A stretch of DNA of 64,000 nucleotides from Streptomyces sp. NBC_01224 (GTDB taxonomy: Bacteria; Actinomycetota; Actinomycetes; Streptomycetales; Streptomycetaceae): NCBI RefSeq assembly GCF_036002945.1, contig NZ_CP108529.1, forward strand, positions 8,303,001 through 8,367,000, in the 5' to 3' direction. Both the position numbers and the translations under genes were made by a program. This document shows, piece after piece, positions 42,283-59,450 of the stretch (its first letter is position 1; each line of letters starts with the position of its first letter). The notes beneath the pieces were generated by a model. It was not told where the DNA came from and made no database searches. It saw only the letters and a list, made by a program, of their open reading frames with translations.

Positions 42283-43110
42283 CTAGGCGTGCAGGGTGCC
42301 GTCCATGACCGTGACGGCGTTTCCTGTGAGGTGGACGCGGTCGCTGTGCACAGCAGTGTGGACCAGACCAGGACGCGCGGACGCCTGGAGGCCGGTGAGT
42401 TCGTCACGGCCAAGTCGCGTCGACCAGTACGGGGCGAGCGCGGTGTGGGCGCTGCCCGTGACCGGGTCTTCGAGAATACCCTCGGCCGGTGAGAAGAAGC
42501 GGGACACAAAGTCGTACTTCAGACCGGTCTCAGCCGCCGGGGCCGTGATGATGACGCCGCGCAGGCCCTCGTGGCGCGTCAGGGCGGCTACCGCGTCCAG
42601 GTCGGGAGTCACGGCCCGAACGGTGGCTTCGTCGGGCAGGACTGTCAGCAGATCGCCGAGCGCGCCGGTATGGAAGGTGGCTTCAGGCCTGACCGCCAGT
42701 GCCTCGGCCAGTCCTTTCGGTGCGGGGACTTCGGTGCCGGGCGCGGCCGGAAAGTCCAGAGTGACGCTGCCTCCCTCGTGGGCGTGGCTGACCAGGACGC
42801 CACTCCGCCGACTGCTGAACCGTACGGTGCCCAGGAGACCCCGCTCCTCGCGCAGGATGTGCGCCGTAGCCAATGTGGCATGGCCGCACAGATTGGTCTC
42901 GACGAGCGGTGCGAACCAACGGATCGCCCAGTCGGCCTCGGACTCAACAGGCAGCGGGAGAGCGAATGCGGTCTCTGAGTAGTTCATTTCGGCTGCAACC
43001 TGCTGCATCCAGGTGTCTTGCGGCCACTCTCCGGCGGGCAGGAGACACACACCTGCCGGGTTCCCGGAGAACGGACGATCAGTGAACGCGTTGACAACAT
43101 GGAATCTCAT
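42283..43110 (-). CDS. PhzF-family isomerase/epimerase-like protein
   Basis: A 275-residue protein of the diaminopimelate-epimerase-like PhzF family. The N-terminus has VVNAFTDRPFSGNPAGVCLL. The catalytic Glu lies in MNYSETAF. FAPLVETNLCGHATLATA is followed in the C-terminal half by EDPVTGSAHTALAPYW. PhzF proteins use a Glu for proton shuttling, but most members have unknown substrates. The ATG at 43110 is chosen because the family always starts at this strand; the frame is open upstream. No functional link to the neighbouring CBS gene is evident. Confidence 0.9.
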   Translation of the reverse strand: MRFHVVNAFTDRPFSGNPAGVCLLPAGEWPQDTWMQQVAAEMNYSETAFALPLPVESEADWAIRWFAPLVETNLCGHATLATAHILREERGLLGTVRFSSRRSGVLVSHAHEGGSVTLDFPAAPGTEVPAPKGLAEALAVRPEATFHTGALGDLLTVLPDEATVRAVTPDLDAVAALTRHEGLRGVIITAPAAETGLKYDFVSRFFSPAEGILEDPVTGSAHTALAPYWSTRLGRDELTGLQASARPGLVHTAVHSDRVHLTGNAVTVMDGTLHA

Positions 43111-43376
43111 GCGAGGACCGTAGCAATGCCATTTGGCGCCCAACCAAGTCCAATCTGAGATAAGTGGACTGGCTATGAATGGGCGCAGATGACGGCCCAG
43201 GGGTCGTCCCATGAAATCTTCGATGAGTGGAGGCGCGGTCCGGCATGGTCCGTGCATGCATCGCGGATCATGCGTTCTGTGCATGCGGCATCTACCAGCT
43301 CATAGGCGCGGCGGCCGAACGCCGTGCGGACCGGACACCCGGTCGGCGACTGTCTTCCGGGGTTCGAGGAGACGAC

Positions 43377-44541: not shown

Positions 44542-45618
44542 TTACGATCCTGGGGCTGACGGTGCGGGTTGCCATTGCGGTTGCCGGTCTGCAGGGTCCA
44601 GCCGCCGGCCCCACCGTGGTGCTGGCGCGGGGGTGGCCGCCCAGGCACCGGCGGCCACCTCGTCGGAGTCGAGCACGTCCTCGCCGTAGAGATCCTGCAG
44701 CCAGTTCGTCTGGTAAATGGTGTCGAGGTAGCGCTCGCCGAGGTCCGGGCCGATGGCCACCGCGGTGAGTTCGCGGGCGTCATGTCGGGCCAACCAGTCC
44801 GATGCTCCGCTGACCACCGTGCCGGTGGAGCCGCCGAACAGGAATCCGCGCCTGGCCAGACGGTGACAGGTACGGATGGTGTCCGCCTCCTCGATATATA
44901 TCACCTCATCCACATAGGACTCGTCGAGCAGCGGCGGGCGCATGCTCATCCCCAGGCCGGGAATCATCCGGCGGCCGGGCGGACCGCCGAAGGACACCGA
45001 CCCGGCGCTGTCCACCGCGATGATCCGCACCGGCCGGTGCCACTCCCGGAAGTAGCGCGCGCAGCCCATCAGGGTCCCGGTGGTGCCGGCCCCGACGAAC
45101 AACACGTCCAGCTGCGGGAACTGGCGGGCGATCTCCGGCGCCGTCTTGCGGTAGTGCGCCTTCCAGTTGCTCGGATTGGTGTACTGGCTGAGCCACACGT
45201 ACCGGTCGTCGGAGGCGCACAGCGCGCGGATGTACTCGATCCGCGCGCCGAGAAAGCCGCCGTTGGCCTCCTGATCGGCGATCACGTGCACCTGGCTGCC
45301 CAACGCCTCCATCATCAACCTGGTCGACAGGTTGCCGCGGGAGTCCGTCACACACAGGAACCGGTAGCCTTTGCTCGCCGCGATCATGCTCAGCGCCACG
45401 CCGAGGTTCCCAGATGAGGACTCGACCAGGATCGATTCCGGCGTCAGGACTCCATCCCGCTCAGCGGCCTCCACCATCTCGGTCGCGGCCTTCAACTTGA
45501 TCGAGCCGGCGAAGTTGAAGCCCTCACACTTCAGGAAGAGCGAGTGCCCGATGATCGACCGAAGGTCGACATAGAGCTCCTCTTCGTTGAAGGCGTAGGG
45601 AACGGATACGACGGGCAC
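44542..45618 (-). CDS. sbnA: SbnA-type PLP enzyme (O-phosphoserine to ACEGA), Dap biosynthesis
   Basis: A 358-residue fold-type II PLP enzyme of the cysteine-synthase family. The PLP lysine is Lys41 in FNFAGSIKLKAA. The substrate loop is VESSSGNLGVAL and the phosphate-binding loop GAGTTGTLMG. SbnA condenses O-phospho-L-serine with L-glutamate to N-(1-amino-1-carboxyl-2-ethyl)-glutamate (ACEGA), which SbnB then cleaves oxidatively to L-2,3-diaminopropionate. The context (SbnB upstream, NRPS in the same operon) favours SbnA over a cysteine synthase. The start is a GTG at 45618 after GAGGAGA. The last 30 residues are Pro/Ala/Gln-rich and not part of the fold. Last biosynthetic gene of the operon. 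Confidence 0.87.
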   Translation of the reverse strand: MPVVSVPYAFNEEELYVDLRSIIGHSLFLKCEGFNFAGSIKLKAATEMVEAAERDGVLTPESILVESSSGNLGVALSMIAASKGYRFLCVTDSRGNLSTRLMMEALGSQVHVIADQEANGGFLGARIEYIRALCASDDRYVWLSQYTNPSNWKAHYRKTAPEIARQFPQLDVLFVGAGTTGTLMGCARYFREWHRPVRIIAVDSAGSVSFGGPPGRRMIPGLGMSMRPPLLDESYVDEVIYIEEADTIRTCHRLARRGFLFGGSTGTVVSGASDWLARHDARELTAVAIGPDLGERYLDTIYQTNWLQDLYGEDVLDSDEVAAGAWAATPAPAPRWGRRLDPADRQPQWQPAPSAPGS

Positions 45619-45829
45619 GATGGTCTCCTCTTATCTGGAGCAGAGCACTTTCGGAACGTCCATCCGACCGTGGGCGGGCTTCTCGCTTTGCGGGCGGGAG
45701 CCTGTGCCCGACCGAGCCGGACGGGGCCCTGCGTCAGCGGCCGCTGTCTCGTGCGTCAGGGCCTGCTGAGACTTGAGTGGTGATCTCCTGGGATCAGCCG
45801 TGGGTTGGCCTCCTGGGCTCTCGGCCGGC

Positions 45830-46900
45830 TCATCCGTACCGGCTCAGTTCGTGGAAGAAGTCGTCGACGACGTGCAACTCTCCGCGGCGGACCACTTCGG
45901 TGTAGACGTACTTGCCCACCGCGAGATCGAGCACCCCGAGGCCGAAGGGCGAGAACACCACCGGCCGGTCCGCCGGTACCGTCACCCGCCCGGCCATCAC
46001 GTCATCCAGCGTGCCGTGCAGGAAGTCCCGGTTGCCCGTGAGCTGCTCGGCCAGATGCGGCGAGGTGTCGGCCTTCAGGCAGTGCTCGATGTCATCGACG
46101 ACGTTGGTCGAGGCGAGCAGGATCTCCGGCGCGAGGTCGCGCAGCGACACGTGCAGCACCAGCGGATTGTGTGCGAACCACGACAGGTCGCTGACATGCG
46201 GCTGACCGGCGACGGTGGCGAAGACCAGCAGGTCGCTGTTGCGGATCAACTGCTCGGCGCTGTCGTGCACGGTGATCCGGCCGGCGCTGCCCGACTGCTC
46301 CAGGTAGCAACGGAAGCCTGCCGCGCTGTCGGCGGACAGGTCGTGCACGCCGATCTCGTCGAACGACCAGCCGGTGCCGGCCAGGAAGGTGTGGATGTAG
46401 CGGGCGATCAAGCCCACCCCGAAGAACCCGACACGCGTCGGTCGCGGCCGGTCGCGGCTGAGCCAGTCGGCCGCCGACGCCGCCGACGCTGCCGTCCTGG
46501 TGGCGCTGATGATCGAGCTTTCCAGACAGGCGAACGGGTAACCGGTGTCGTGGTCGTTGAGGATCAGCACAGCCGAGGCCCTCGGGATGCCGGCCGTCAC
46601 GTTCTCCGGGAAGCTGGAGATCCACTTCAGGCCGTCCACCCGCACCTCCCCGCCGATCGAGGCGGGCAGCGCGATGATGCGGGAGGACGGGCGGTCGGGG
46701 AAACGCAGGAAGTACGACGGCGGGTTCACCGAATCACCGGCGCCGTGCACCCGGTAGGTGGCCTCCACCAACTCCACGATCTTCTTCTCGCATCCGTGCA
46801 GCGCGCGCTGGACCTGGGCACCGGAGATCACCGCGAACGGTGGCACGGTGATCGGCGCGGCCGTCGCGGACTGTGTTGCGGTGGAACTGATGGTGGTCAT
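45830..46900 (-). CDS. sbnB: SbnB-type ACEGA dehydrogenase, Dap biosynthesis
   Basis: A 356-residue member of the ornithine cyclodeaminase/mu-crystallin family. The Rossmann motif is GFFGVGLIARYIHTFLAG. The N-terminal half has FAVISGAQVQRALHG and GLKWISSFPENV, and the C-terminal half has FSPFGLGVLDLAVGKYVY. SbnB is an NAD+-dependent enzyme that splits ACEGA into alpha-ketoglutarate and L-2,3-diaminopropionate (Dap). Pairing with SbnA two genes' width away makes this assignment far more likely than ornithine cyclodeamination. The ATG at 46900 overlaps the stop of the dioxygenase gene by four bases, so the two are translationally coupled; a 211-base gap separates it from sbnA. Confidence 0.87.
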   Translation of the reverse strand: MTTISSTATQSATAAPITVPPFAVISGAQVQRALHGCEKKIVELVEATYRVHGAGDSVNPPSYFLRFPDRPSSRIIALPASIGGEVRVDGLKWISSFPENVTAGIPRASAVLILNDHDTGYPFACLESSIISATRTAASAASAADWLSRDRPRPTRVGFFGVGLIARYIHTFLAGTGWSFDEIGVHDLSADSAAGFRCYLEQSGSAGRITVHDSAEQLIRNSDLLVFATVAGQPHVSDLSWFAHNPLVLHVSLRDLAPEILLASTNVVDDIEHCLKADTSPHLAEQLTGNRDFLHGTLDDVMAGRVTVPADRPVVFSPFGLGVLDLAVGKYVYTEVVRRGELHVVDDFFHELSRYG

Positions 46901-47901
46901 CCTGCGGTCACCTCGATGGTTGGCGAGCAATCGGCCAGATGCACCGGGTCGGCCATGGCGACGAGCACTTCGCGCGGTCCCTCGAAGGGCTCCCTGCTGT
47001 GCGCGGTGCGGATGTTGTCGACGAGCATCAGGTCGCCGGCCTGCCACGGCTCGCGTGCGGTGTTGGCCTCGTAGACGCTGTTGAGCAGCTGCACGACGTC
47101 CTCGCCGATCGGGTCGCCGTTGCCGAAGCGGGTATTGAACGGCAGCCCGTCGGCGCCGTAGACGTCCACCAGGTACTCGCGCACCTCGGGGGCCATCGTC
47201 CACTCGTTGAGGAACGCAATCTGGTTGAACCAGCAGCGCCGACCGCTGACCGGGTGACGCACCACGGCGCTGCGGCGCTGTCTGGTGCGCAGTCCACCGT
47301 CGGGCTGCCACTCGAACGTGATCGCGTTGGCGCGGCAGTAACTCTCGACGGCACCACGGTCCTCGGTGCCGAACGCTTCGGCGATGGACGCCCCGATCTC
47401 TTCATTGTAACTGCGGTTGAGCAGCCAGCCCTCCCGCTCGAACCGCTCTGTCAACTCGGCGGGCAGCGCGTCGAGCACGGCCGGTGAGTCGGCCACCGCG
47501 GTCGCCCCGCCGTCGGTGGGTGCGCTGAGGCAGGCGAACATCATCAGGCCGGGGAACTCAAGCGTGTAGCTAAGTTCATGGTGCATGCACATTGGCTGGT
47601 TCGGCGGCCATTTCGATGAGGAGTACACGCCGTCGGAGTAGGTCCGTCGGGGCGCGAAGACCTCCTTCTCGGTCATCAGACCGGTGGCCAGCTTCGAGAA
47701 GACGGCGCCGGTCTCGGCCGCATTGCGCAGCCCGAGGCCGCGGACCAGGACCGAACCGTGCTCGGCGACGACAGCGCGCAGCGCGTCCCGGTGCTCGGCC
47801 GCCCAGCTCAGCGCGCCGTCGGTGGCACCGGTCCGCAGCAGCGGAGGTTTGCCGGGTTCCAGTTCCACGTCTTCCAGCGACGCCGTGGGCATGAACGACA
47901 T
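46897..47901 (-). CDS. TauD/SyrP-like Fe(II)/alpha-ketoglutarate dioxygenase
   Basis: A 334-residue non-haem iron oxygenase. The facial triad is visible as His107-x-Glu109 in PMCMHHELSYT and a distal His301 in DNIRTAHSREPFEG, with the 2-oxoglutarate-binding Arg expected about 11 residues further (EGPREVLVAM). The nearest class by motif is the TauD/clavaminate-synthase group that includes SyrP and related beta-hydroxylases, which act on amino acids held on NRPS carrier domains. It is therefore a candidate to hydroxylate Dap, or the precursor, free or carrier-bound. ATGA coupling to sbnB and a 23-base gap after the NRPS gene place it firmly in the operon. An alternative is epoxidation or desaturation, also known in this superfamily. 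Confidence 0.88.
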   Translation of the reverse strand: MSFMPTASLEDVELEPGKPPLLRTGATDGALSWAAEHRDALRAVVAEHGSVLVRGLGLRNAAETGAVFSKLATGLMTEKEVFAPRRTYSDGVYSSSKWPPNQPMCMHHELSYTLEFPGLMMFACLSAPTDGGATAVADSPAVLDALPAELTERFEREGWLLNRSYNEEIGASIAEAFGTEDRGAVESYCRANAITFEWQPDGGLRTRQRRSAVVRHPVSGRRCWFNQIAFLNEWTMAPEVREYLVDVYGADGLPFNTRFGNGDPIGEDVVQLLNSVYEANTAREPWQAGDLMLVDNIRTAHSREPFEGPREVLVAMADPVHLADCSPTIEVTAG

Positions 47902-47924
47902 CTCGATTTCCTTTCAGTTGCCAC

Positions 47925-50900
47925 TCAGAAAGAAGCGAACAAGTCGGCGGCGCGCAGCACGGCCTGTGCCGCCTCGGTCGGACGGGTGTGCAGGAAGTGG
48001 TGGCCGCCGTCGGCGAGCTCGTGCAGGTCGACCTGCTCGGCCAGGAGCTGCCAGTCGCGGTACCGGTGCGGGTACTCCGCTGTGCTCGGGTCGTCGGCGG
48101 CAACGACCACGGTGACCGGAGCGGACAGCTTCGGCGCAGGCGGGCCGTCCAGGGCGTCGGCGAAATAGCGGTGTGCGGACACACAGTCGTGCCGGTAGGC
48201 GGCACCGACGTGCTCGGCGTGCTGCGGGTCCAGCTCAACGAGCTCTGTGTACCCGCCGTCCGCGCTCAGCTCTGCGGCGATCTCGGCGTTGCTCAGCCCG
48301 GTCAGCTCGGTGATGGTGGCGCGCCGGTGGGCGGCGTCGCCGAGCAGCTGCGCGCCGAGGAACACCCGTTGGACGTCCACCCCGCGCTCCTGCAGCTTTC
48401 TGGCCGTCTCGACGGCCAACGCGGTGCCCGAGGAATGGCCCCACAGCAGGACCCTGGTCAGGCCGCGTTGGATGATTTCGACGACGACCTGCTCGACCAC
48501 CTGTGCCATCGGCGTGATCGGCTCGCTTTCGGCGGCCACGTCGTGACCGGGCAGCTCGACGGCGTAGACCGCCGGCCCCCCGCCCGCCAGCGCCCTGGCC
48601 ATCGGCTGGAAGTTCACCGCGTTGCCGCCGGCGTAGGGGAAGCACACCAGGGCAGCGGCCTGCGCACCGTCCGATTCCGACAGTGGCTGAAGCAGCCCGG
48701 AGGGCCGCTCGGACCTGCCGTCGACCGGTCCGGAGCGCCGCTCGGACCTGCCGTCGACCAACCCGGCCAGATCGGCGAGGATCGGGTGACGGGTGACGTC
48801 CTTGAGGGACACCGCACGGTCCAGGGTGATCGCCAGCTTCACTGCCGACAGCGACGTGCCGCCCCGGTCGAAGAAGTGGTCCCGCCGTCCGATCTGGTTC
48901 TGCGGGATGCCGAGCACCTTCGCCCATGCGGCTGCCAACTGCTGTTCGGTCGGCGTATTCGGCGCGCGGTAGTCGTCCTGGACGACGTCGAGTTCTTCGG
49001 CGAGCGCCCGCAAAGTTTTCCTGTCGATCTTGCTGTTGGCCGTCAGCGGCAGATTTTCCCGCCAGTGGAAGGCCGACGGGACCATGTACTCGGGCAGCGA
49101 CTCACCGAGCCGGTCCAGCAGGACGTCGGCATCGAGTGGCTGCAGACCGGAGTAGAACGCCACCAGGTGTTTGCTCTGGTCGGCCCGCTCGGTGACCACC
49201 ACTGCACCGTCGCGAACGCCGGGCACTCGCACCAGGGTGTTCTCGATCTCGCCGATCTCGATCCGGAAGCCACGAATCTTCACCTGGGTGTCCCGGCGTC
49301 CGAGGAACTCCAGCTTGCCCTCGGGCTGCCAGCGGCCGTAGTCGCCGCCCCGGTAGAGCCGGGCGCCCTCACGGTGCGGATCGGCCAGGTAGGCCTGCCG
49401 GGTGCGCTCGGGGTCGTTGACGTATCCGCGGCCGACGCAGACGCCGGAGAAGACGATCAGACCGGGTGCACCGAGCGGCACCGGGGTCAGGTGCTCATCG
49501 ACGACATAGACGTGCACGTTGTTGACCGGGGGACCCAGCGGGACCCCGTCCCCGTCCGGCACGTGGTCCATGACCTCGTGGTTGGTGTCGTCCGAAGTCT
49601 CGGTCAGCCCATAGGCGTTGACCAGCTTGATCCCGGGCTGGGCGGCGAACCAGCGCTGCGTGAGCTCCTTCTTCAGCGCCTCGCCGGTGACCGACACGCA
49701 GCGCAGGTCCGGCAGCTCGCGGGGGTACTGCTGCAGACAGGACACGACGACGTCCAGGTAGGAGGGTACGACCTGGAGGACGGCGACCCGGCCGTCAACG
49801 ATCTTGTCGACGAATTGCTGGACGTCCAGGATCACTTCCTGCTCCACCAGCAGGGTCCGCCCCCCGACGAGGAGCCCGGACACCAATTGCCACAGCGAGA
49901 TGTCGAAGCACTGGGGTGCGGTCTGGGCGACCACCTGTCCCTCGCTGATCTCGAGGTCATCGATCTTGGCGTAGAGGTGGTTGAGCATGCCCGCGTGCTC
50001 GCACATCGCGCCCTTGGGCTCACCTGTGGAGCCGGAGGTGAAATAGATGTAGGCGAGCTGGTCCGGTGCGACGCGGAGGCCCAGATCGTCGTCGGCATGG
50101 TCTTCCTCGTAGGCTGCGCCGACGAATAGCTTCCGGACCCCGGACAGCGAGTCGAGGGCCTGGTCGAGCGTGGAGGTGCTGCCGGGTTCGGTCAGCACGA
50201 GCCCGCATGCGGCACGGGAGAGCATGGCCGCGAGGCGATCGGCCGGGAAGGTCGGCTCGATGGGCAGGTACACGCCGCCGGCCTTGAAGACCGCGAGGAC
50301 GGCGGCCATCCAGTCCAGGTTGCGCTCCGTCACCACCGCGACCACACCCTCGGGGCGCAGCCCCCGCGCCAGCAGGGCTCGTCCCAACCGGTTGGCACGC
50401 GCGTTGAGTTCCCGATAGGTCAGCTGCCGTTCCCCATGCACCGCCGCGATGGCGTCCGGGTGTGCCGCCACCCGCTGCTCGAACAGCTCGTGGAACCGGC
50501 GGTCCGGCAGCTCCCGGCGCGGACCGGCGAGCCCTTCGAGCTGGAAGCGGATTTCCTCGGCGGAGAGCAGGCTCTGCCGCCCGTGCTCGGCGTCGGGATC
50601 GGCGGCGATCAGCGCAAGTGCGGTCAGGTGGTAACCGGCGATTCTGACGGCGCAGTCCGCGTCGAGTGCGTCGGTCCGGTACCGCAGCCGCAGCACGAGG
50701 CGGCCTTCGCGTTGCGAAGAACCCACCCACAGCACGGTGTCACCGGCGAGTTCGCCACCCAAGCCGTGCGGATCGAAAACGGCCTCGATCGACGGTTCGG
50801 CCAGACCCAGCTCGCGCCTGAGCTCATCGACCGGAAAGTCCTTGTGCAACAGCAGATCGGACGCGACTCGATGGGTGTTCAGCAACAGCGTCCGCCACGA

Positions 50901-51212
50901 GTCGGGTTCGGTCGTCAGTCGGCAGGGCAGCAGCGGGCCGCCCTCCGCAGTGACGTAGCCGGTCGCGACCTCGTGCTCGCCGGACAGCGCGGCGAGCACC
51001 TTGGCGTGCGCGGCCAGCAGCACCGAGTCGAGCGGCACGGCCAGGTCCTCGGTCAACCGGCCCAACGCCGCCACGACGTCGTCCGGGACCGTCGCCTCGT
51101 GTTCGCCGACGCCCGTCACCGGTTCGAGCGTCCACCGCGGGATTGCGGTGAATCCACCGGCGACGAGCACAGCGCGCCAGAACTCCCGGTCGGCCTGCAC
51201 TTGCATTTCCAT
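47925..51212 (-). CDS. NRPS: partial condensation lobe, adenylation, carrier, thioesterase
   Basis: A 1,095-residue single-module synthetase. Residues 1-215 look like only the second lobe of a condensation domain (ending in a TALALIAADPDAE helix); no HHxxxDG is present. Adenylation (about 240-735) has YFTSGSTGEPKGAMCEH, NAYGLTETSDD, YRGGDYGRW, GRRDTQVKIRGFRIE and NSKIDRKTL. By eye the specificity positions are D I W Q S T A D D plus the Lys. The carrier site is RGGTSLSA (about 790). The C-terminal thioesterase has CFPYAGGNA, nucleophile GHSSGTA and His in GGHHFLH, more like a stand-alone type II thioesterase than a release domain. I use the ATG at 51212, preceded by GGAGAGAG; an ATG at 51230 lacks a binding site. 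With SbnA/SbnB beside it, Dap is the likely substrate. Confidence 0.9.
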   Translation of the reverse strand: MEMQVQADREFWRAVLVAGGFTAIPRWTLEPVTGVGEHEATVPDDVVAALGRLTEDLAVPLDSVLLAAHAKVLAALSGEHEVATGYVTAEGGPLLPCRLTTEPDSWRTLLLNTHRVASDLLLHKDFPVDELRRELGLAEPSIEAVFDPHGLGGELAGDTVLWVGSSQREGRLVLRLRYRTDALDADCAVRIAGYHLTALALIAADPDAEHGRQSLLSAEEIRFQLEGLAGPRRELPDRRFHELFEQRVAAHPDAIAAVHGERQLTYRELNARANRLGRALLARGLRPEGVVAVVTERNLDWMAAVLAVFKAGGVYLPIEPTFPADRLAAMLSRAACGLVLTEPGSTSTLDQALDSLSGVRKLFVGAAYEEDHADDDLGLRVAPDQLAYIYFTSGSTGEPKGAMCEHAGMLNHLYAKIDDLEISEGQVVAQTAPQCFDISLWQLVSGLLVGGRTLLVEQEVILDVQQFVDKIVDGRVAVLQVVPSYLDVVVSCLQQYPRELPDLRCVSVTGEALKKELTQRWFAAQPGIKLVNAYGLTETSDDTNHEVMDHVPDGDGVPLGPPVNNVHVYVVDEHLTPVPLGAPGLIVFSGVCVGRGYVNDPERTRQAYLADPHREGARLYRGGDYGRWQPEGKLEFLGRRDTQVKIRGFRIEIGEIENTLVRVPGVRDGAVVVTERADQSKHLVAFYSGLQPLDADVLLDRLGESLPEYMVPSAFHWRENLPLTANSKIDRKTLRALAEELDVVQDDYRAPNTPTEQQLAAAWAKVLGIPQNQIGRRDHFFDRGGTSLSAVKLAITLDRAVSLKDVTRHPILADLAGLVDGRSERRSGPVDGRSERPSGLLQPLSESDGAQAAALVCFPYAGGNAVNFQPMARALAGGGPAVYAVELPGHDVAAESEPITPMAQVVEQVVVEIIQRGLTRVLLWGHSSGTALAVETARKLQERGVDVQRVFLGAQLLGDAAHRRATITELTGLSNAEIAAELSADGGYTELVELDPQHAEHVGAAYRHDCVSAHRYFADALDGPPAPKLSAPVTVVVAADDPSTAEYPHRYRDWQLLAEQVDLHELADGGHHFLHTRPTEAAQAVLRAADLFASF

Positions 51213-51274
51213 CTCGTCGTCTCTCTCCATTCACTGTCGCGACTGTGCTGTCCAGCGCCGACAGGGCGGCGCTG

Positions 51275-53809
51275 CTACCTCTTCCGCGTCAGTGCCTCGG
51301 GCTGATAAGGGGCTTCTCGCGTTTCCGTGGCGGGGTTTCCTCCCCAGCGTGCGTGCTGTGGGACTTCCTCGCCCTTCATGAGAAAGGAGTCGGGGGCGAG
51401 CACCGCGCCGTCGCCCATCGTCACGCCGTAATGGACGTGGGATCCCACACCGAGGGTGCAGCCGACGCCGAGGGTGCTGCGATCGGACTTGAAGGTGCCG
51501 TCCTCCTGCGAGTGACACTGGATCTTGCTTCCCGCATTGAGCGTGCAGTCGTCCCCGATGGTGGTGAGCGTCCGCTCCGTCAGATAGCAGCCGTCGTCGA
51601 AAACCCTGCTGCCGATACGAACACCCAGCATCCGCCAGATCACGTTCTTGAAAGGGGTGCCGTTGAATACGTTGAGGTACGTGTCAGGCACCTTCCAGAG
51701 GCGCTCGTGCCACCAGAAGTACGGGTCGTAGATGGAACACAACTGCGGTCGCAGCGCACGGAATGCCGCGATGCCGCGCTCCACCAGTACAAAGTAGACG
51801 GCGGTGAACCCAAGGCTGAACACCAGGAACGCGGCGATCAGCACGTGCCCGTAAGTACCGTACAGATCGACGTTCGCCAGGCCGATCACCGTGAGCACGA
51901 AGAAATGCAGCCAGCGCACGAGCAGGAAGAAGACCATCGAGCGGATGTTGTAGCGGTTCTTTGCGGCGAGGCTGCTGTGCAACTCGTCGCCGGTCCGGAG
52001 ATGGTCGAACCGGGAGTCGCGCTCGACCGACCGGGGAATCTCGAAGCACGGCGAGCCGAGCAGGCCCACGCCCTCGCGAACCTCACCGTCGAGCGGAACC
52101 ATCACCTTCGTCGCGAGGAGGCAGTTCTCGCCCGTCCTGGCTCCTGAGGGAAAGGCGATGTTGTTCCCGATGAAGTTGTGTGGCCCGATCGAGGCCCGGG
52201 ACACCCGGAAGGACGTACTCGAAAAGTCGGCATTGACGATGGAGAGCCCGTCGGCGACCATCGTTCCGCTGCCGACAGAGCACAGGTACGGGGTCTCGTG
52301 CTGCACTTCCGTGCCGAAGTTCGACCCGGTCTGCTCGACCCGGGACAAGTCGTATCCGAGGCCGCGCAAATAGTGGACGATGCAGGAGCTGTCACCGAAC
52401 AGCCATTTGAAAAACTTGATGTTGGTCATGCGCCCGATCGCCCGGTGTGCCGAGTAATGCAACCCGTACAGCGGATAGACCTTGTCCGGTTTGACGACCA
52501 GGTTCAGCAGCCGTGGAACAGTGAACAGTACGGCCAGGCCCACGACGACGAAGCCGAAGAACAGCACGAAGGAAAGGATCAGCGCGTCGATGTAGAGGTC
52601 CGGAGATGTGAACCCGACCGTGCCCGGGCCCAGCCGGTTGTGCAGCGCCGGAACCAGGGTAAACAGCATGTACGTGCCCCCGACGGCCAGCGGCACGTAG
52701 AGGAAGAACAGCTGAAGCACGGTGACGAGGCCGAAGCCGGCCCGGCGCAGCGTGCCGCACTCGGCCGGCCCGATCCTCAGGTAGTCATGCTCCGTGAGCT
52801 GTGCCGGGGATCCGTGCCAGCGCTGGCCGTCCGGGACCACCTGGCCGCTGTACAGCGTGGACGTGTGGCCGAGTTGCGCCCCGTCGCCCATCGACGTGTC
52901 GATGTCGAGCACGGTCTTCTCGCCGATGAACACGTCCCGGCCAAGGGTGATTCGGCCGGTCTGGATACGGCCGGCGTGCGCCCGGTAGCAGAGGAAGAAC
53001 GAGTCTTTGCGGATCACCGTGCCTGCGCCGATCGTGAGCAGGTCGGGGCAGGCCGGAACGTTGCGGGAGAGGATCGTGACTCCCTTGCCGATCCGTGCGC
53101 CCAGGGCTCGCAGGTACAGCACGTACAGGGGATTGCCGACGAAGAAAATCATCGGATTGGCGTGGATCAGCACCTTGACGGTCCAGAAGCGCAGATACGT
53201 CAGGCCCCAGACCGGGAACTCGCGCGATTTCCACCGGCCGACGAGGAGCCATTTGGCCACGATCGGGAAGGTGCACAGACCGACGAAGCCGACGCCGCCG
53301 AAGACGAACGATCGCAGGTAGATGCCGATCAAATCCGAGCCGGCGGAGACCCATGCATAGCCCAGGTCGGCAACAAGTCCGGCGAGGAACGAATATCCCA
53401 GGAAAAGCAGGAACTGCAGCGTTCCGCACAGGGCGTACTGCACCGTGCCGGCCGGAGTCACCATTTCGGCCGGTGCCGGGACCGACGACTTGGCAGGGGC
53501 GGGCGCGGCGTCCGCGAGCCCCGTCGCCAGGCTTCGGATCGTCGGGTGCCGGTAGATGTCCTTCATCGAAGCCGATGGGAGGTCCGCCCGCTTCCTGACC
53601 CGTGCGCAGAAATGGGCCATCACCAACGAATTGGCGCCGAGGTCGTCGAAGAAGTTGCTGTCGACCGACACCTGTTCGACACACATGACGTCAGCCAGCA
53701 CCTTGGCGAGGTCTGTCTCGATGCCGGTCCCCGGGTCGGAGTACCTGCGCGTGTTGATCGCAGATTCATCCGGCCCGGACATCAAGACCTCGACGGATTT
53801 CTCCTCCAT
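51275..53809 (-). CDS. Carrier-domain membrane protein with three acetyltransferase-like beta-helix domains (Pls-like, lacking the A domain)
   Basis: An 844-residue protein. A carrier domain fills residues 30-112, with the phosphopantetheine Ser61 in DDLGANSLVM. Six or so membrane helices are grouped as pairs (about 128-197, 355-435 and 625-685). Between and after them are three soluble left-handed beta-helix (hexapeptide) domains; examples are IGKGVTILSRNV, RASIGPHNFIGNNIAF and RSTLGVGCTLGVGSHVHYGV. This is the layout of epsilon-poly-lysine synthetase (Pls) downstream of its adenylation domain. In Pls the membrane-embedded tandem C domains link amino acids iteratively. Here the adenylation domain is missing, so the next gene's A domain must supply the aminoacyl group in trans. 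The ATG follows AAGGAG. It is the first gene of the Dap operon. Confidence 0.88.
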   Translation of the reverse strand: MEEKSVEVLMSGPDESAINTRRYSDPGTGIETDLAKVLADVMCVEQVSVDSNFFDDLGANSLVMAHFCARVRKRADLPSASMKDIYRHPTIRSLATGLADAAPAPAKSSVPAPAEMVTPAGTVQYALCGTLQFLLFLGYSFLAGLVADLGYAWVSAGSDLIGIYLRSFVFGGVGFVGLCTFPIVAKWLLVGRWKSREFPVWGLTYLRFWTVKVLIHANPMIFFVGNPLYVLYLRALGARIGKGVTILSRNVPACPDLLTIGAGTVIRKDSFFLCYRAHAGRIQTGRITLGRDVFIGEKTVLDIDTSMGDGAQLGHTSTLYSGQVVPDGQRWHGSPAQLTEHDYLRIGPAECGTLRRAGFGLVTVLQLFFLYVPLAVGGTYMLFTLVPALHNRLGPGTVGFTSPDLYIDALILSFVLFFGFVVVGLAVLFTVPRLLNLVVKPDKVYPLYGLHYSAHRAIGRMTNIKFFKWLFGDSSCIVHYLRGLGYDLSRVEQTGSNFGTEVQHETPYLCSVGSGTMVADGLSIVNADFSSTSFRVSRASIGPHNFIGNNIAFPSGARTGENCLLATKVMVPLDGEVREGVGLLGSPCFEIPRSVERDSRFDHLRTGDELHSSLAAKNRYNIRSMVFFLLVRWLHFFVLTVIGLANVDLYGTYGHVLIAAFLVFSLGFTAVYFVLVERGIAAFRALRPQLCSIYDPYFWWHERLWKVPDTYLNVFNGTPFKNVIWRMLGVRIGSRVFDDGCYLTERTLTTIGDDCTLNAGSKIQCHSQEDGTFKSDRSTLGVGCTLGVGSHVHYGVTMGDGAVLAPDSFLMKGEEVPQHARWGGNPATETREAPYQPEALTRKR

Positions 53810-54089
53810 GCGGGCTCCTTGAAGCGAACTTTCGAGTGCCGTCGGCCATTACGGTCGGCGCCCCGTACTCGCGCTTTTTCGGTGGCCGGAGCGAGTAGTC
53901 CGGAAGTCACGAGGCCGGGATCCGTTGTCCGATTCCCAAACCGTCGCCTTAGTCTCAACTGTCCACCGTCGGGTTGCCACCCGAACATCCGCCAAAAGAG
54001 GGGGACCGGTTCGCGGGGGCGCGTGGATATGGCCAAGGCGGTCGGGAGCGATGCTGAATGCGCCCGCCTTCTCCGGACGGGCGCCGCCT
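53810..54089. promoter_or_regulatory. Upstream region of the Dap operon
   Basis: Expected to hold the operon promoter. The only dyad I noticed is TACTCGC (53866-53872) with GCGAGTA (53891-53897), an 18-base gap between arms, 57 bases before the start codon, a plausible but unproven operator. No iron-box (DmdR1/IdeR-type) palindrome is seen, which argues against a siderophore role. No pathway regulator gene adjoins. Confidence 0.35.
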
Positions 54090-54647: not shown

Positions 54648-55124
54648 TCACATGTTCTTCGCGCCTGTCTTGGTGGCCTCCCGGATACGCGTGTACGTGC
54701 CGCAGCGGCAGATGTTGCGGATCTCGTGGAGGTCACGGTCCTCGATCTCGCGCCCATCGGCAGTGGCCTGCCGGACCTTGGCGACGGCGGCCAGGATCTG
54801 GCCTGGCTGGCAGTAGTCGCACTGTGCGACGTCCGGGTCCAGCCAGGCCTCCTGCATCGGATGCAGGTCCTTGCCGACGGTGGCGGGCAGCCCCTCGATC
54901 GTGGTGATCTCGTCGTCCGGCGTGATCTTCGACACGGGGACCGAACACGGGTTGAATGCCTTGCCGTTGATGTGCGACGTGCAGGCCTGGCGCACGCCGA
55001 GACCGCAGCCGTACTTGGGTCCCGTGACGCCGAGCAGATCGCGCAGCACCCACAACAGTCGTACGTCGTCCTCGGCCTCGACGGTGATCTGCTCGCCGTT
55101 GAGCTCGAAAGTGTGGCTTGCCAT
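54648..55124 (-). CDS. 2Fe-2S subunit of a xanthine dehydrogenase/aldehyde oxidase-type enzyme, with a mutated ligand
   Basis: A 158-residue two-cluster iron-sulfur subunit of the xanthine oxidase family. The plant-ferredoxin-type N-terminal half should carry C-x4-C-x2-C and a fourth Cys. The sequence has Cys40 in YGCGLG, Cys48 and Cys60 (NPCSVP), but the second ligand is Arg45 (GLGVRQACT). CGC replaces the expected TGC, a single transition. The C-terminal helical half keeps its ligands (CDYCQPGQ and ICRCGTY). The frame is otherwise intact. Neighbouring genes of the same complex (molybdenum subunit, XdhC) are broken, so this gene is probably no longer under selection. In a functional operon it would pass electrons from the molybdenum site. 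Confidence 0.85.
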   Translation of the reverse strand: MASHTFELNGEQITVEAEDDVRLLWVLRDLLGVTGPKYGCGLGVRQACTSHINGKAFNPCSVPVSKITPDDEITTIEGLPATVGKDLHPMQEAWLDPDVAQCDYCQPGQILAAVAKVRQATADGREIEDRDLHEIRNICRCGTYTRIREATKTGAKNM

Positions 55125-55142
55125 GGCTGGACTCAGGGCTCC

Positions 55143-56095
55143 TCAGTAGGCGCGGTCAAGACCGTCGGTGGGGGACTGGGGTGTGGACGGTTCGATGGGC
55201 AATGGTTCGAAGCCGAGGGTGCCATGGTTGATCGGGAAGCTCGTCGGCATGCTGCCCGTCGCGCGTGCGTACGCGCAGGCGATGGCGGCGAACGCGGGCG
55301 CGACCCCCAACTCGCTTGCTCCGGAGGGCTTGTCGCTGGTGCCCGGCATGACGACAACCCGTAGTTCGGGCGGGGTGTTCCACTGCCGTGTGTAGAAGTA
55401 GTTGTCCCAACTGCCCTCCAGCGGTATGCCGTCCTTGATGTGCAGGCTGGAGGTGAGTGCCATGGCGGGAGCGTCGTTGAGACCGCCCATCATCCGGGCG
55501 TCCAGGCGACGGGGGTTGATGGCGAATCCCGCGTCGACGACCACCAGGGCCTTTGTGACGCGCGGTCCCGTCACCGCGTCCCGGATCTTCCGGTTGACGG
55601 TCTCCGGACGACAGTCGATCTCGACGAGCGTGGCGACCGCGCCCGGTACCCCGAGTGCGGGCCGATGCCCTGGGCCACCCCCGGGGGCAGTGACCTGCCC
55701 CAGTCGTCCTCGTCAACCGCCTTGTCCAGGACGGCGCGCAACTGCTCGTCCTTGAGGAACTCGCGACGGAACCCCACGGGGTCTTTGCCCATCCTCGCGG
55801 CGAGCTGATCGACGACCAGCTCCCGCGCGCACGCCACATTCGGGGAGTAGATGTTGCGCATGCTGCCGGTGTTGAGCTTCAGCGGCACCTCGTTGAGCAG
55901 CTGGGTGGTGACACCGAAGTTGTACGGCGAGGACTGAGTCAGCCCGAAGATCGTCTCGGCGAACGTCAGGTTGCCGGCGACGGGCAACTTCGCCGCCGTC
56001 GACGTGATCGTCTCGCCGAGACCGTGGCCGAAGTCGGTCTGCGAACTGGTGTGCCGCTGCTCATAACTGAGGACGTTGCCGAGCGCGTATGTCGC
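55143..56095 (-). pseudogene. Molybdenum-binding subunit of a xanthine dehydrogenase-type enzyme, truncated and frameshifted
   Basis: C-terminal part only. One frame gives TSSQTDFGHGLGETITSTAA, then NTGSMRNIYSPNVACARELV and AVDEDDWGRSLPPGVAQGIG. A frameshift near 55655 moves the reading to VPGAVATLVEIDCRPETVNR, then FAINPRRLDARMMGGLNDAP, then the active-site SGASELGVAPAFAAIACAYA near the C-terminus. The catalytic Glu region is therefore present, but the protein is split and its N-terminal 400 or more residues are gone. Upstream it is fused to a PucR fragment. Confidence 0.82.
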
Positions 56096-56109
56096 GCGTA
56101 CACGTGAGA

Positions 56110-56510
56110 CGCACATTGGATGCGTACGGCGAGGGAGAGTTCCACATGGTCGCCACAGTTCGTGATGTCGTGTCCGGTGATGGTGTGGATCCTGAGGAGG
56201 CGGCTGAGGACGGTCTCGCGGTGACGGAGCAGCAACTAGGCCGTCCGGACCACGGATCCGGCTGTAGTGACCCAGGCCTTCAGGGTGTCGAGCAGCGTTT
56301 GGTGCTCCGCGTCGGCCAGGTCGCGCTCGGCCATCGCATGCTCGTGACGCGCCTCCTCGCCATCCGGAGCCCGACGCCACCCGAGCACTGGCTGAACAAT
56401 TGGCTGTTCTCACCGCGCGAGCACGCGGTGACAGCCCTGGCCGCCGAGGGCAGGCCCATGGACCTGGTAGGTGGCGAGGCCGGTCGGCGCGGTGCGGGAA
56501 CATGCCCGAG
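56110..56510 (-). pseudogene. PucR/CdaR-family regulator C-terminal relic
   Basis: On the minus strand the sequence reads LLDTLKAWVTTAGSVVRTA, then an in-frame stop, then LLLRHRETVLSRLLRIHTIT, GHDITNCGDHVELSLAVRI. This is the helix-turn-helix end of a PucR-type regulator (canonical HRNTLRYRLxRIxELTGxDL). PucR proteins often control purine catabolism, which fits the adjacent xdh remains. The stop and missing N-terminus show it is dead. Confidence 0.65.
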
Positions 56511-58568: not shown

Positions 58569-59450
58569 TCAAGCGGCACCCGTCAGGTCACGATGGATGA
58601 TGCGGGCCGCTCCTTCGACTGTGCCGACGCCATAGTCCATCGTGCGATTGCCGGTCGAGAGCACAGCCATGCCGTAGTCGTGACCACCGCCGGTGAAGGC
58701 GCCCACGCTGTTCACCCGCCATCCGCCGGTGGTGCGCGGCAGCCAGCCATTCTTGACGTGCACGGATGCCGTAGCGGGTGATCCGGCGGGCACCCCCCAC
58801 CTCTGGTCGGGGGCGACGTGATTCATCAGATCGAGAGCGTAGCTGCGCGAGGAGGGGGTCAGCACCGCATTCTCCGTTGTCAGCAGTTGCATGAGCCGGA
58901 GCTGGTCGCCGGCGGTGATCTGGGTGAGGCCCCAGCTCTTACCTGCAGCGGGAACAGTGTGCCGCATCTGTGCCAGAGTCAGGAACTTCTTGTAGCCGGC
59001 GGAACCGATCTGGTGCCAGAGGGCGGAGGTCGAGTCGTTGTCCGACTTGGTGATCATGGCAGTGGCCAGCTTCACCTCCCGCGGAGTCAGCTCCCGGTGT
59101 GCCTCCTCGGCCTGCCGCAGCAGTGCTCCGAGCACCGAAACCTTCACCACGCTGGCGGAGTCGAAATACGTGTCGGCCTTGAGCTCACAGGTGGTTTCGG
59201 TGACCCGGTCGTAGAGGGCCAGCGACCATGTGCCCTGTCGCCCGTTCAGAGCCCCGGCTATGTCGTGGGACAGTTCGGAGGCCAGTCCTGGCTTCTTAGA
59301 GGTACAGACGACCTTCGAACCACCCGCCGTGGCACTGACGGTGCCGGCCGACGCCGGGGTTGCCAAGGCGAATACGGTGAGCAATGAGCTTGCGGCCAGA
59401 GCAGTGGCCAGACCGCGCCGCGAGCAGGTCAATATGTGTGATCCGTGCAT
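58569..59450 (-). CDS. Secreted class A beta-lactamase-like serine hydrolase
   Basis: A 293-residue exported protein. A signal peptide of about 35 residues (LATALAASSLLTVFALATPA, SAG) is followed by a penicillin-recognising fold. The SxxK motif is Ser100-Val-Val-Lys103, the SDN loop is ITKSDNDSTSALW, and a KxG motif is present as VKNGWLP. Instead of the usual KTG it reads KNG, and I could not confirm the omega-loop Glu166. It may therefore be a true beta-lactamase of unusual type or a cell-wall peptidase-like relative. The ATG at 59450 gives a twin-Arg-like SRRGLAT before the hydrophobic stretch, so Tat export is possible. It is monocistronic. Confidence 0.82.
   Translation of the reverse strand: MHGSHILTCSRRGLATALAASSLLTVFALATPASAGTVSATAGGSKVVCTSKKPGLASELSHDIAGALNGRQGTWSLALYDRVTETTCELKADTYFDSASVVKVSVLGALLRQAEEAHRELTPREVKLATAMITKSDNDSTSALWHQIGSAGYKKFLTLAQMRHTVPAAGKSWGLTQITAGDQLRLMQLLTTENAVLTPSSRSYALDLMNHVAPDQRWGVPAGSPATASVHVKNGWLPRTTGGWRVNSVGAFTGGGHDYGMAVLSTGNRTMDYGVGTVEGAARIIHRDLTGAA

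Follow-up and report, generated by a model that had tools for sequence, protein, structure and literature searches.

Gene content and layout of the operon

We analysed 64,000 nucleotides of Streptomyces sp. NBC_01224 (contig NZ_CP108529.1, positions 8,303,001 to 8,367,000; this whole stretch is hereafter the window), located at 8.30–8.37 Mb of a 9.66-Mb contig in a 10.0-Mb genome, and focused on a five-gene operon that is a candidate for the synthesis of a polymer of oxidised 2,3-diaminopropionate (Dap). The operon lies on the minus strand and runs from 53809 to 44542 in the order membrane protein of the poly-lysine synthetase (Pls) type, protein with adenylation, carrier and thioesterase domains (A-T-TE), TauD-family oxygenase, SbnB and SbnA (Table 1). 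Successive genes are separated by 44, 23, -4 and 211 bases, the oxygenase and SbnB genes overlapping by 4 bases because the likely SbnB start is at 46900. A sequence-only reading of this DNA had proposed the same co-oriented genes and domains, and both were confirmed at these coordinates.

The membrane protein matched the Pls/PosA terminal-domain model TIGR02353 (NRPS_term_dom) with 884.3 bits (cut-off 423.1), covering profile positions 1-695 of 695. SbnA and SbnB, previously read as a complete pair for L-Dap synthesis, are encoded by adjacent genes, and both indeed exceeded the cut-offs of their equivalog models. In the A-T-TE protein, Pfam recognised AMP-binding (256.7 bits), PP-binding (32.9 bits) and Thioesterase (61.7 bits) domains. 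Part of its N-terminal ~240 residues is similar to the latter half of a condensation domain, with a sub-threshold match at residues 7-95 (20.2 bits, cut-off 30.6; profile positions 187-279 of 456), and the HHxxxDG motif was not found within the first 240 residues.

Table 1 Features of the operon, with protein lengths in amino acids (aa) and positions in the window
Feature	Length	Position	Strand	Motifs and supporting matches
Membrane polymerase	844 aa	51275..53809	-	N-terminal carrier (Ser61) and Pls/PosA terminal domain, without A domain; PF00550 and TIGR02353
A-T-TE protein	1101 aa	47925..51230	-	N-terminal condensation-domain remnant; pocket DIWQSTADDK; carrier GGTSL; TE GHSSG; Pfam, motifs
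TauD-family Fe(II)/2-oxoglutarate oxygenase	334 aa	46897..47901	-	H107-x-E109, H301, R310; PF02668 151.8 bits
SbnB, partner enzyme in Dap synthesis	356 aa	45830..46900	-	TIGR03944 419.1 bits, cut-off 326.9
SbnA, pyridoxal-phosphate enzyme of Dap synthesis	358 aa	44542..45618	-	TIGR03945 386.8 bits, cut-off 349.95; GSIK Lys present
Candidate regulatory element GTGGCARCY-N15-GARACT		53951..53980	-	Upstream of the membrane protein gene; conservation

Conservation of the five-gene set

Relatives of the membrane protein were collected by a scan with one genome per species, and the best 80 of 185 were analysed (identity down to 66%; 79 Streptomyces and one Kutzneria). All five genes were found together, in the same order and on the same strand, in 75 of these 80 loci, which marks the set as more than a chance arrangement. 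Four of the five incomplete loci are interrupted by contig ends, and the fifth (L060) holds a lone membrane gene; in L151 and L152, SbnA lies upstream and divergent, yet the set is complete. No flanking family of open reading frames (ORFs) recurred in more than 13 of the 80 loci, as judged by crude ORF calling over ~9 kb upstream and only ~2 kb downstream. In 45 of 150 same-genus genomes, this oxygenase lay at most 9 kb from a Pls/PosA match, and 17 of 394 genomes of the class, from 4 of 137 genera, encode a protein closely related to the membrane protein. We rejected the idea of a decayed operon, since at least 97% of the 75-81 aligned rows retain the key motifs, in SbnA and SbnB as well as in the oxygenase and both carriers.

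The TE domain was matched in 67 of 78 loci. For eight of the 11 loci without a match, the gap to the next gene measures 21-245 bases, too short for a TE; since at least 8 of 78 relatives thus have no space for it, the domain is not essential, and we read its likely role as proofreading or accessory.

Upstream of the membrane protein gene, the full 30-base bipartite element of Table 1 recurs in 21 of 81 upstream regions (0.0 expected from shuffles) and its first half in 43 of 81 (0.9 expected). Although shared ancestry partly explains this conservation, the element is a possible promoter or operator.

Adenylation domain and its genomic company

The pocket of the A domain, with positions assigned by a GrsA-based convention, reads DIWQSTADDK and is identical in 77 of 79 loci, the two others being cut short (L017) or broken (L081). 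The same string was found in all ten A-T or A-T-TE proteins that lie beside SbnB/SbnA outside Pls operons (L180-L186, L188, L189, L192). It also occurs in a second kind of genomic company: on a Streptomyces plasmid (L134), an A-T-TE protein ~47% identical to that of the window carries this pocket next to cysteine-synthase-like, argininosuccinate-lyase-like (argH-like), ATP-grasp and kinase genes, and in L187 and L191 it adjoins relatives of the cysteine-synthase-like, argininosuccinate-lyase-like and ATP-grasp genes. A variant, DIWQATCDDK, is present in Kitasatospora (L090) and in L190. Cysteine-synthase and argininosuccinate-lyase-like genes together are described for a gausemycin-type cluster, and gausemycin contains 2,3-diaminobutyrate (PMC12471526).

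Because one pocket adjoins two kinds of 2,3-diamino-acid genes, its predicted substrate is a 2,3-diamino acid, and the presence of SbnA/SbnB in the window points to Dap in particular. The earlier proposal of a Dap-type substrate is thereby supported, on the strength of pocket and genomic company. By the description in PMC10522769, Pls A domains are marked by Asp at pocket position 1 and Glu at position 3. The fused Pls relatives that we examined have D-F-E, D-L-E or D-A-E pockets; the trans-acting A domain of the window has no Glu at position 3, and so was probably not simply severed from a Pls.

Oxygenase and Pls-free cassettes

Sequence-only reading had singled out the dioxygenase as the part that could not be matched. 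It proved instead to travel with this kind of A-T protein. Sixteen further loci were sorted by gene content: ten comprise A-T, TauD, SbnB and SbnA genes; L187, L190 and L191 combine A-T and TauD with cysteine-synthase-like and lyase genes; L179 is limited to TauD and SbnB; and both the DIW pocket and Sbn genes are missing from L193 and L194. The ten A-T/TauD/SbnB/SbnA cassettes share the pocket of the window operon, with oxygenases 55-65% identical to its own, but no Pls match was found within the 19.5 kb examined around them. In two genomes of the window's genus, A-T and TauD even form a single polypeptide, at L188:7135-10485 (1116 aa, pocket DIWQSTADDK) and L190:3341-6562 (1073 aa, pocket DIWQATCDDK). 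Given this recurrence and fusion, the oxygenase most likely acts on carrier-bound Dap, the fusions being the strongest evidence for action on the residue held by that very carrier. DdaC, for which a carrier-bound Dap derivative is described as the substrate (PMC12451424), provides a precedent. As related oxygenases accompany both kinds of cassette, the reaction should work on Dap as well as on other 2,3-diamino acids.

In L185, a 3-phosphoglycerate dehydrogenase gene follows SbnA, which fits a serine-derived precursor. Two Pls-free cassettes contain a second oxygenase (clavaminate synthase/VioC/GntD-like) just downstream of SbnA (L181:12141-13139 and L188:12705-13823), and this enzyme may act next on oxidised Dap.

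Within the 150 same-genus genomes, 117 Pls rows over cut-off were compared with 68 TauD rows of at least 55% identity, leaving out 19 weaker TauD rows. Pls matches were divided by open-frame length alone (1200 aa), so that some of the short ones are contig-end fragments. The oxygenase lay within 9 kb of 49 of the 59 Pls matches shorter than 1200 aa, versus 1 of the 58 longer ones. Inspection of this single long-frame case (G105, L137) revealed the A domain as a separate match, and moving it to the split class changes the counts to 50 of 60 versus 0 of 57. Conversely, 48 of the 52 oxygenases with at least 65% identity were near a Pls match.

The H-x-E, H and R set, presumably the Fe and 2-oxoglutarate ligands, is invariant in all 35 oxygenases of an alignment hand-picked for spread (A2). 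Together with a TauD fold (model pLDDT 80.5), these residues are as expected for a carrier-tethered amino acid oxygenase of the SyrP/DdaC type. The closest solved fold is At3g21360 (Z 28.3, rmsd 2.6, 295 aligned), and the next matches, among them TauD, ScoE, SfaA, Rv0097 and PvcB, all score Z 18.1-20.6 (rmsd 3.0-4.5), so that no particular reaction can be read from the fold. A sequence search against solved structures returned 9yut as a further match. Phylogenetically, the Pls-operon enzymes, the Pseudonocardia enzymes beside Pls and those beside DIW-pocket A-T proteins form one clade, which also holds a few members from nonribosomal peptide synthetase clusters without the DIW pocket (L193, L194, Burkholderia); the Pantoea enzyme in the DdaC position falls apart from it. 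Support is weak at several inner nodes of this tree, and a sister relation between the Pseudonocardia and operon branches is not firm.

Membrane polymerase

As described, Pls/PosA synthetases have their A, carrier and membrane domains in a single chain; the 844-aa protein of the window opens with a carrier, and its A domain is encoded by the next gene. The Pfam and TIGR02353 matches thus upheld the earlier view, in which a carrier forms part of the Pls-type membrane protein and the A domain acts in trans. The carrier residue Ser61 is invariant in 39 of 39 membrane proteins, chosen by hand for spread from 81 (alignment A1). The best AlphaFold model (mean pLDDT 70.8, pTM 0.72) suggests a carrier together with three transmembrane hairpins that alternate with left-handed beta-helix segments, the layout expected of Pls/PosA synthetases, with residues 494-602 mostly below a pLDDT of 50. 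Foldseek searches with this model returned mainly beta-helix acyltransferases and carbonic anhydrases, a likeness at the domain level only (TMq 0.06-0.16). A threefold beta-helix arrangement has already been published as a model for PosA (PMC10522769).

By sequence, the protein groups with fused Pls of the D-F-E and D-L-E pocket type, away from most of the D-A-E (lysine-like) type, to which it is only ~24-30% identical; branch supports within the split group are low. Among the fused D-F-E/D-L-E relatives, L131 adjoins an annotated ectB (diaminobutyrate transaminase) and L138 lies near a weaker ectB match. Phe at pocket position 2 is described as the signature of synthetases for poly(L-diaminopropionic acid) (PDAP) and poly(diaminobutyric acid) (PDAB) (PMC10522769).

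On three plasmids (L127, L129, L130), the surroundings of Pls-type genes include genes for metal transport, copper resistance or DUF305 proteins, and it is conceivable that the polymer contributes to metal tolerance.

Proposed pathway and rival explanations

On balance, the operon probably makes and polymerises oxidised Dap. SbnA and SbnB would first produce L-Dap, as expected from their equivalog-level families. In the staphylococcal scheme, these two enzymes release 2-oxoglutarate during Dap synthesis, which could conceivably feed the oxygenase. The A domain of the A-T-TE protein would then load Dap onto its own carrier, as pocket and context suggest, and the TauD-family enzyme would oxidise the carrier-bound residue at the expense of 2-oxoglutarate, a step to which gene fusion and co-occurrence point. 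Subsequently, the oxidised monomer may be loaded on, or handed to, the carrier of the membrane protein, whose membrane domain, by homology to Pls/PosA, would link monomers iteratively through an amine. Such a two-carrier relay fits the serine motifs kept in both carriers. We infer the oxidation product, the chain length and polymerisation itself. The route outlined by the sequence-only reading, a Dap homopolymer or oligomer that is possibly hydroxylated, thus holds in outline, while its plain poly-Dap version gives way to a polymer or oligomer of oxidised Dap as the likelier product. An oxidised monomer becomes the default rather than an option, because the oxygenase travels with the A-T protein and is fused to it.

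More tentatively, and with somewhat less than even confidence, we propose a fuller scenario in which the monomer is oxidised on one carrier and then polymerised by a second, membrane-bound carrier protein. Such a synthetase would consist of two proteins: in place of its own A domain, the polymerase would have acquired a plug-in A-T/oxygenase/Dap cassette, of a kind that also occurs without Pls. The product would be a common Streptomyces polymer whose monomer is not known from the homopolymers named in the literature that we found.

Several observations weigh against the oxidised polymer. Hydroxylation of Dap at C3 with a free beta-amine gives an unstable carbinolamine, which acylation of the beta-nitrogen would avoid; desaturation would keep both nitrogens, and hydroxylation and desaturation are both candidate reactions. 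Four membrane genes (L060, L127, L128, L148) have no A-T protein nearby, ten Pls matches shorter than 1200 aa have no oxygenase nearby (some of them at contig ends), and in Pseudonocardia alni, outside the 150-genome sample, a fused Pls adjoins TauD. Oxidised Dap alone does not imply a polymer, since the A-T/TauD/Sbn cassette occurs without a Pls gene, and five of the ten such cassettes have further A domains in the stretch (L183, L184, L188, L189, L192). The other four AlphaFold models of the membrane protein average a pLDDT of only 46.6-52.0. L170 encodes a fused Pls that has a D-A-E pocket and a terminal domain 56% identical to that of the window, which suggests an exchange of A domains. 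For the DIWQSTADDK string, our search of the open-access literature found no assayed domain. The tie of the cysteine-synthase-like and argH-like genes to 2,3-diaminobutyrate is suggestive only, as the original gausemycin cluster is described without either gene (PMC12471526). Release of 2-oxoglutarate in the first step is uncertain because S. albulus NjxA/NjxB are reported to make Dap from serine and ornithine, and not from O-phosphoserine and glutamate (PMC4668381). Finally, in the beta-lysine polymers of streptothricin, a stand-alone A domain is described as serving a diamino-acid homo-oligomer (PMC10522769), so such products offer a precedent for a trans-acting A domain; that passage does not mention a Pls membrane domain, and we liken the two systems by description.

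Two rival explanations keep the Dap route and dispense with an oxidised polymer. Plain poly(L-Dap), made with a trans-acting A domain and with an oxygenase confined to chain ends, to a fraction of the molecules or to another substrate, would suit a full Dap route joined to a polymerase that groups with PDAP/PDAB-type enzymes, and a single-chain Pls-like enzyme is known to make PDAP (PMC4668381). We consider it rather unlikely, as the oxygenase is present in all 75 complete loci and is linked to the monomer by two genomes that encode it fused to such an A-T protein, whereas the D-F-E fused Pls of L138 and L139 have no such oxygenase in flanks of several kb. Alternatively, the membrane protein might form one or a few amide bonds, or transfer a residue to a membrane acceptor, giving a short Dap-derived small molecule. 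The frequency of the TE domain (67 of 78 loci), the occurrence of Pls-free cassettes, several of them beside other A domains, and the low mass of known PDAP (only 0.5-1.5 kDa; PMC4668381) are in line with this idea. We judge it unlikely, however, because the terminal domain is complete over its profile and the characterised relatives are described as polymer synthetases (PMC10522769, PMC4668381).

Further from the preferred oxidised polymer are two products suggested by single components of the operon. Dapdiamide biosynthesis, leading to epoxy- or fumaramoyl-Dap peptides, comes to mind because a Pantoea locus (L153) likewise combines Dap synthesis, an A-T protein and an oxygenase for a carrier-bound Dap derivative: sbnA, sbnB, a TauD gene in the DdaC position and an A-T gene in the DdaD position are consecutive there, and the substrate of DdaC is described as carrier-bound (PMC12451424). 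That locus, however, also has ddaF, ddaG and asnB, none of them among the five genes of the window, its A-T partner has the pocket DSEDIGVINK, its oxygenase is only 32% identical and groups apart, and no Pls gene is annotated in the 18.8 kb shown. With pocket and partners so different, we rejected a dapdiamide-type product as highly improbable. A siderophore is hardly more credible. SbnA and SbnB, first known from staphyloferrin B, are what speaks for it; no conserved neighbour was found beside the operon within the limited flanks, and when an iron-box pattern was fitted, the 81 upstream regions did not outperform shuffles (9.4 versus 9.0 mismatches on average), on which ground this candidate was rejected. 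A Zur-box pattern fitted slightly better than shuffles (6.5 versus 7.0 mismatches). Hydroxylation at C-3 by SulO, as in sulfazecin, was likewise rejected as a direct parallel, and by its description serves as a precedent only (PMC6097109).

Comparison with known systems

The nearest published pathway is that for PDAP in S. albulus PD-1, with which the sequence-only reading had suggested a possible identity. Shared features, by the published description, are Dap synthesis through cysteine-synthase-like and ornithine-cyclodeaminase-like enzymes and a Pls-type membrane terminal domain with a carrier. The PD-1 synthetase PDAPs, however, is described as one 4,338-bp ORF with A, peptidyl-carrier and membrane domains, with the Dap genes not nearby (PMC4668381), which sets it apart from the split synthetase of the window and its Dap genes within the operon; nor do the abstract, results and methods of that paper name a dioxygenase. 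Because the architectures differ, identity with the PD-1 pathway was rejected. With the epsilon-Pls and PosA synthetases, the window shares the TIGR02353 domain, and the best model also suggests membrane hairpins and beta-helices; it differs in its separate A-domain protein, in a pocket without Glu at position 3, and in the oxygenase and Sbn genes of the operon.

Also related are two Pseudonocardia plasmid loci (L089, L093), in which the polymerase is 50-51% and the oxygenase 54-56% identical to those of the window. The P. alni enzyme is a single A-T-T-T-membrane chain with a D-L-E pocket, whereas the annotation of L093 has separate AMP-binding and Pls genes. A cysteine-synthase-like gene lies further off in Pseudonocardia, and no SbnB match was found in the stretch. 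The P. alni Pls (L089:4622-9133) has three carriers in a row between its A and membrane domains.

Pls-type synthetases are described with A, carrier and membrane domains in one chain (PMC10522769, PMC4668381). The sequence network in PMC10522769 uses a length cut-off of 1100-1800, which would exclude the 844-aa form. Few natural homopolyamino acids are on record: four were counted in 2015 (PMC4668381), and six diamino-acid homopolymers plus the authors' own poly-ornithine in 2023 (PMC10522769). Searches of the open-access literature for the split synthetase, for its genes or for an oxidised Dap residue found nothing; a system common enough to occur in 45 of 150 same-genus genomes is apparently uncharacterised. 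If the proposed pathway is correct, Pls-type polymerases take monomers that other proteins supply and alter; which substrates the membrane domain accepts could then be tested directly, and a route to new cationic polymers would follow.

Neighbouring genes

Upstream of the operon, the region 54648-56503 (minus strand) includes a full-length match to the small (2Fe-2S) subunit of xanthine/aldehyde oxidoreductases; this is followed by large-subunit-like fragments, recognised by eye in different frames, which resemble a decayed operon. Downstream, 42283-43284 (minus strand) encodes a PhzF-family isomerase according to Pfam. Further upstream, at 58569-59450 (minus strand), a secreted class A beta-lactamase-like protein was recognised by eye.

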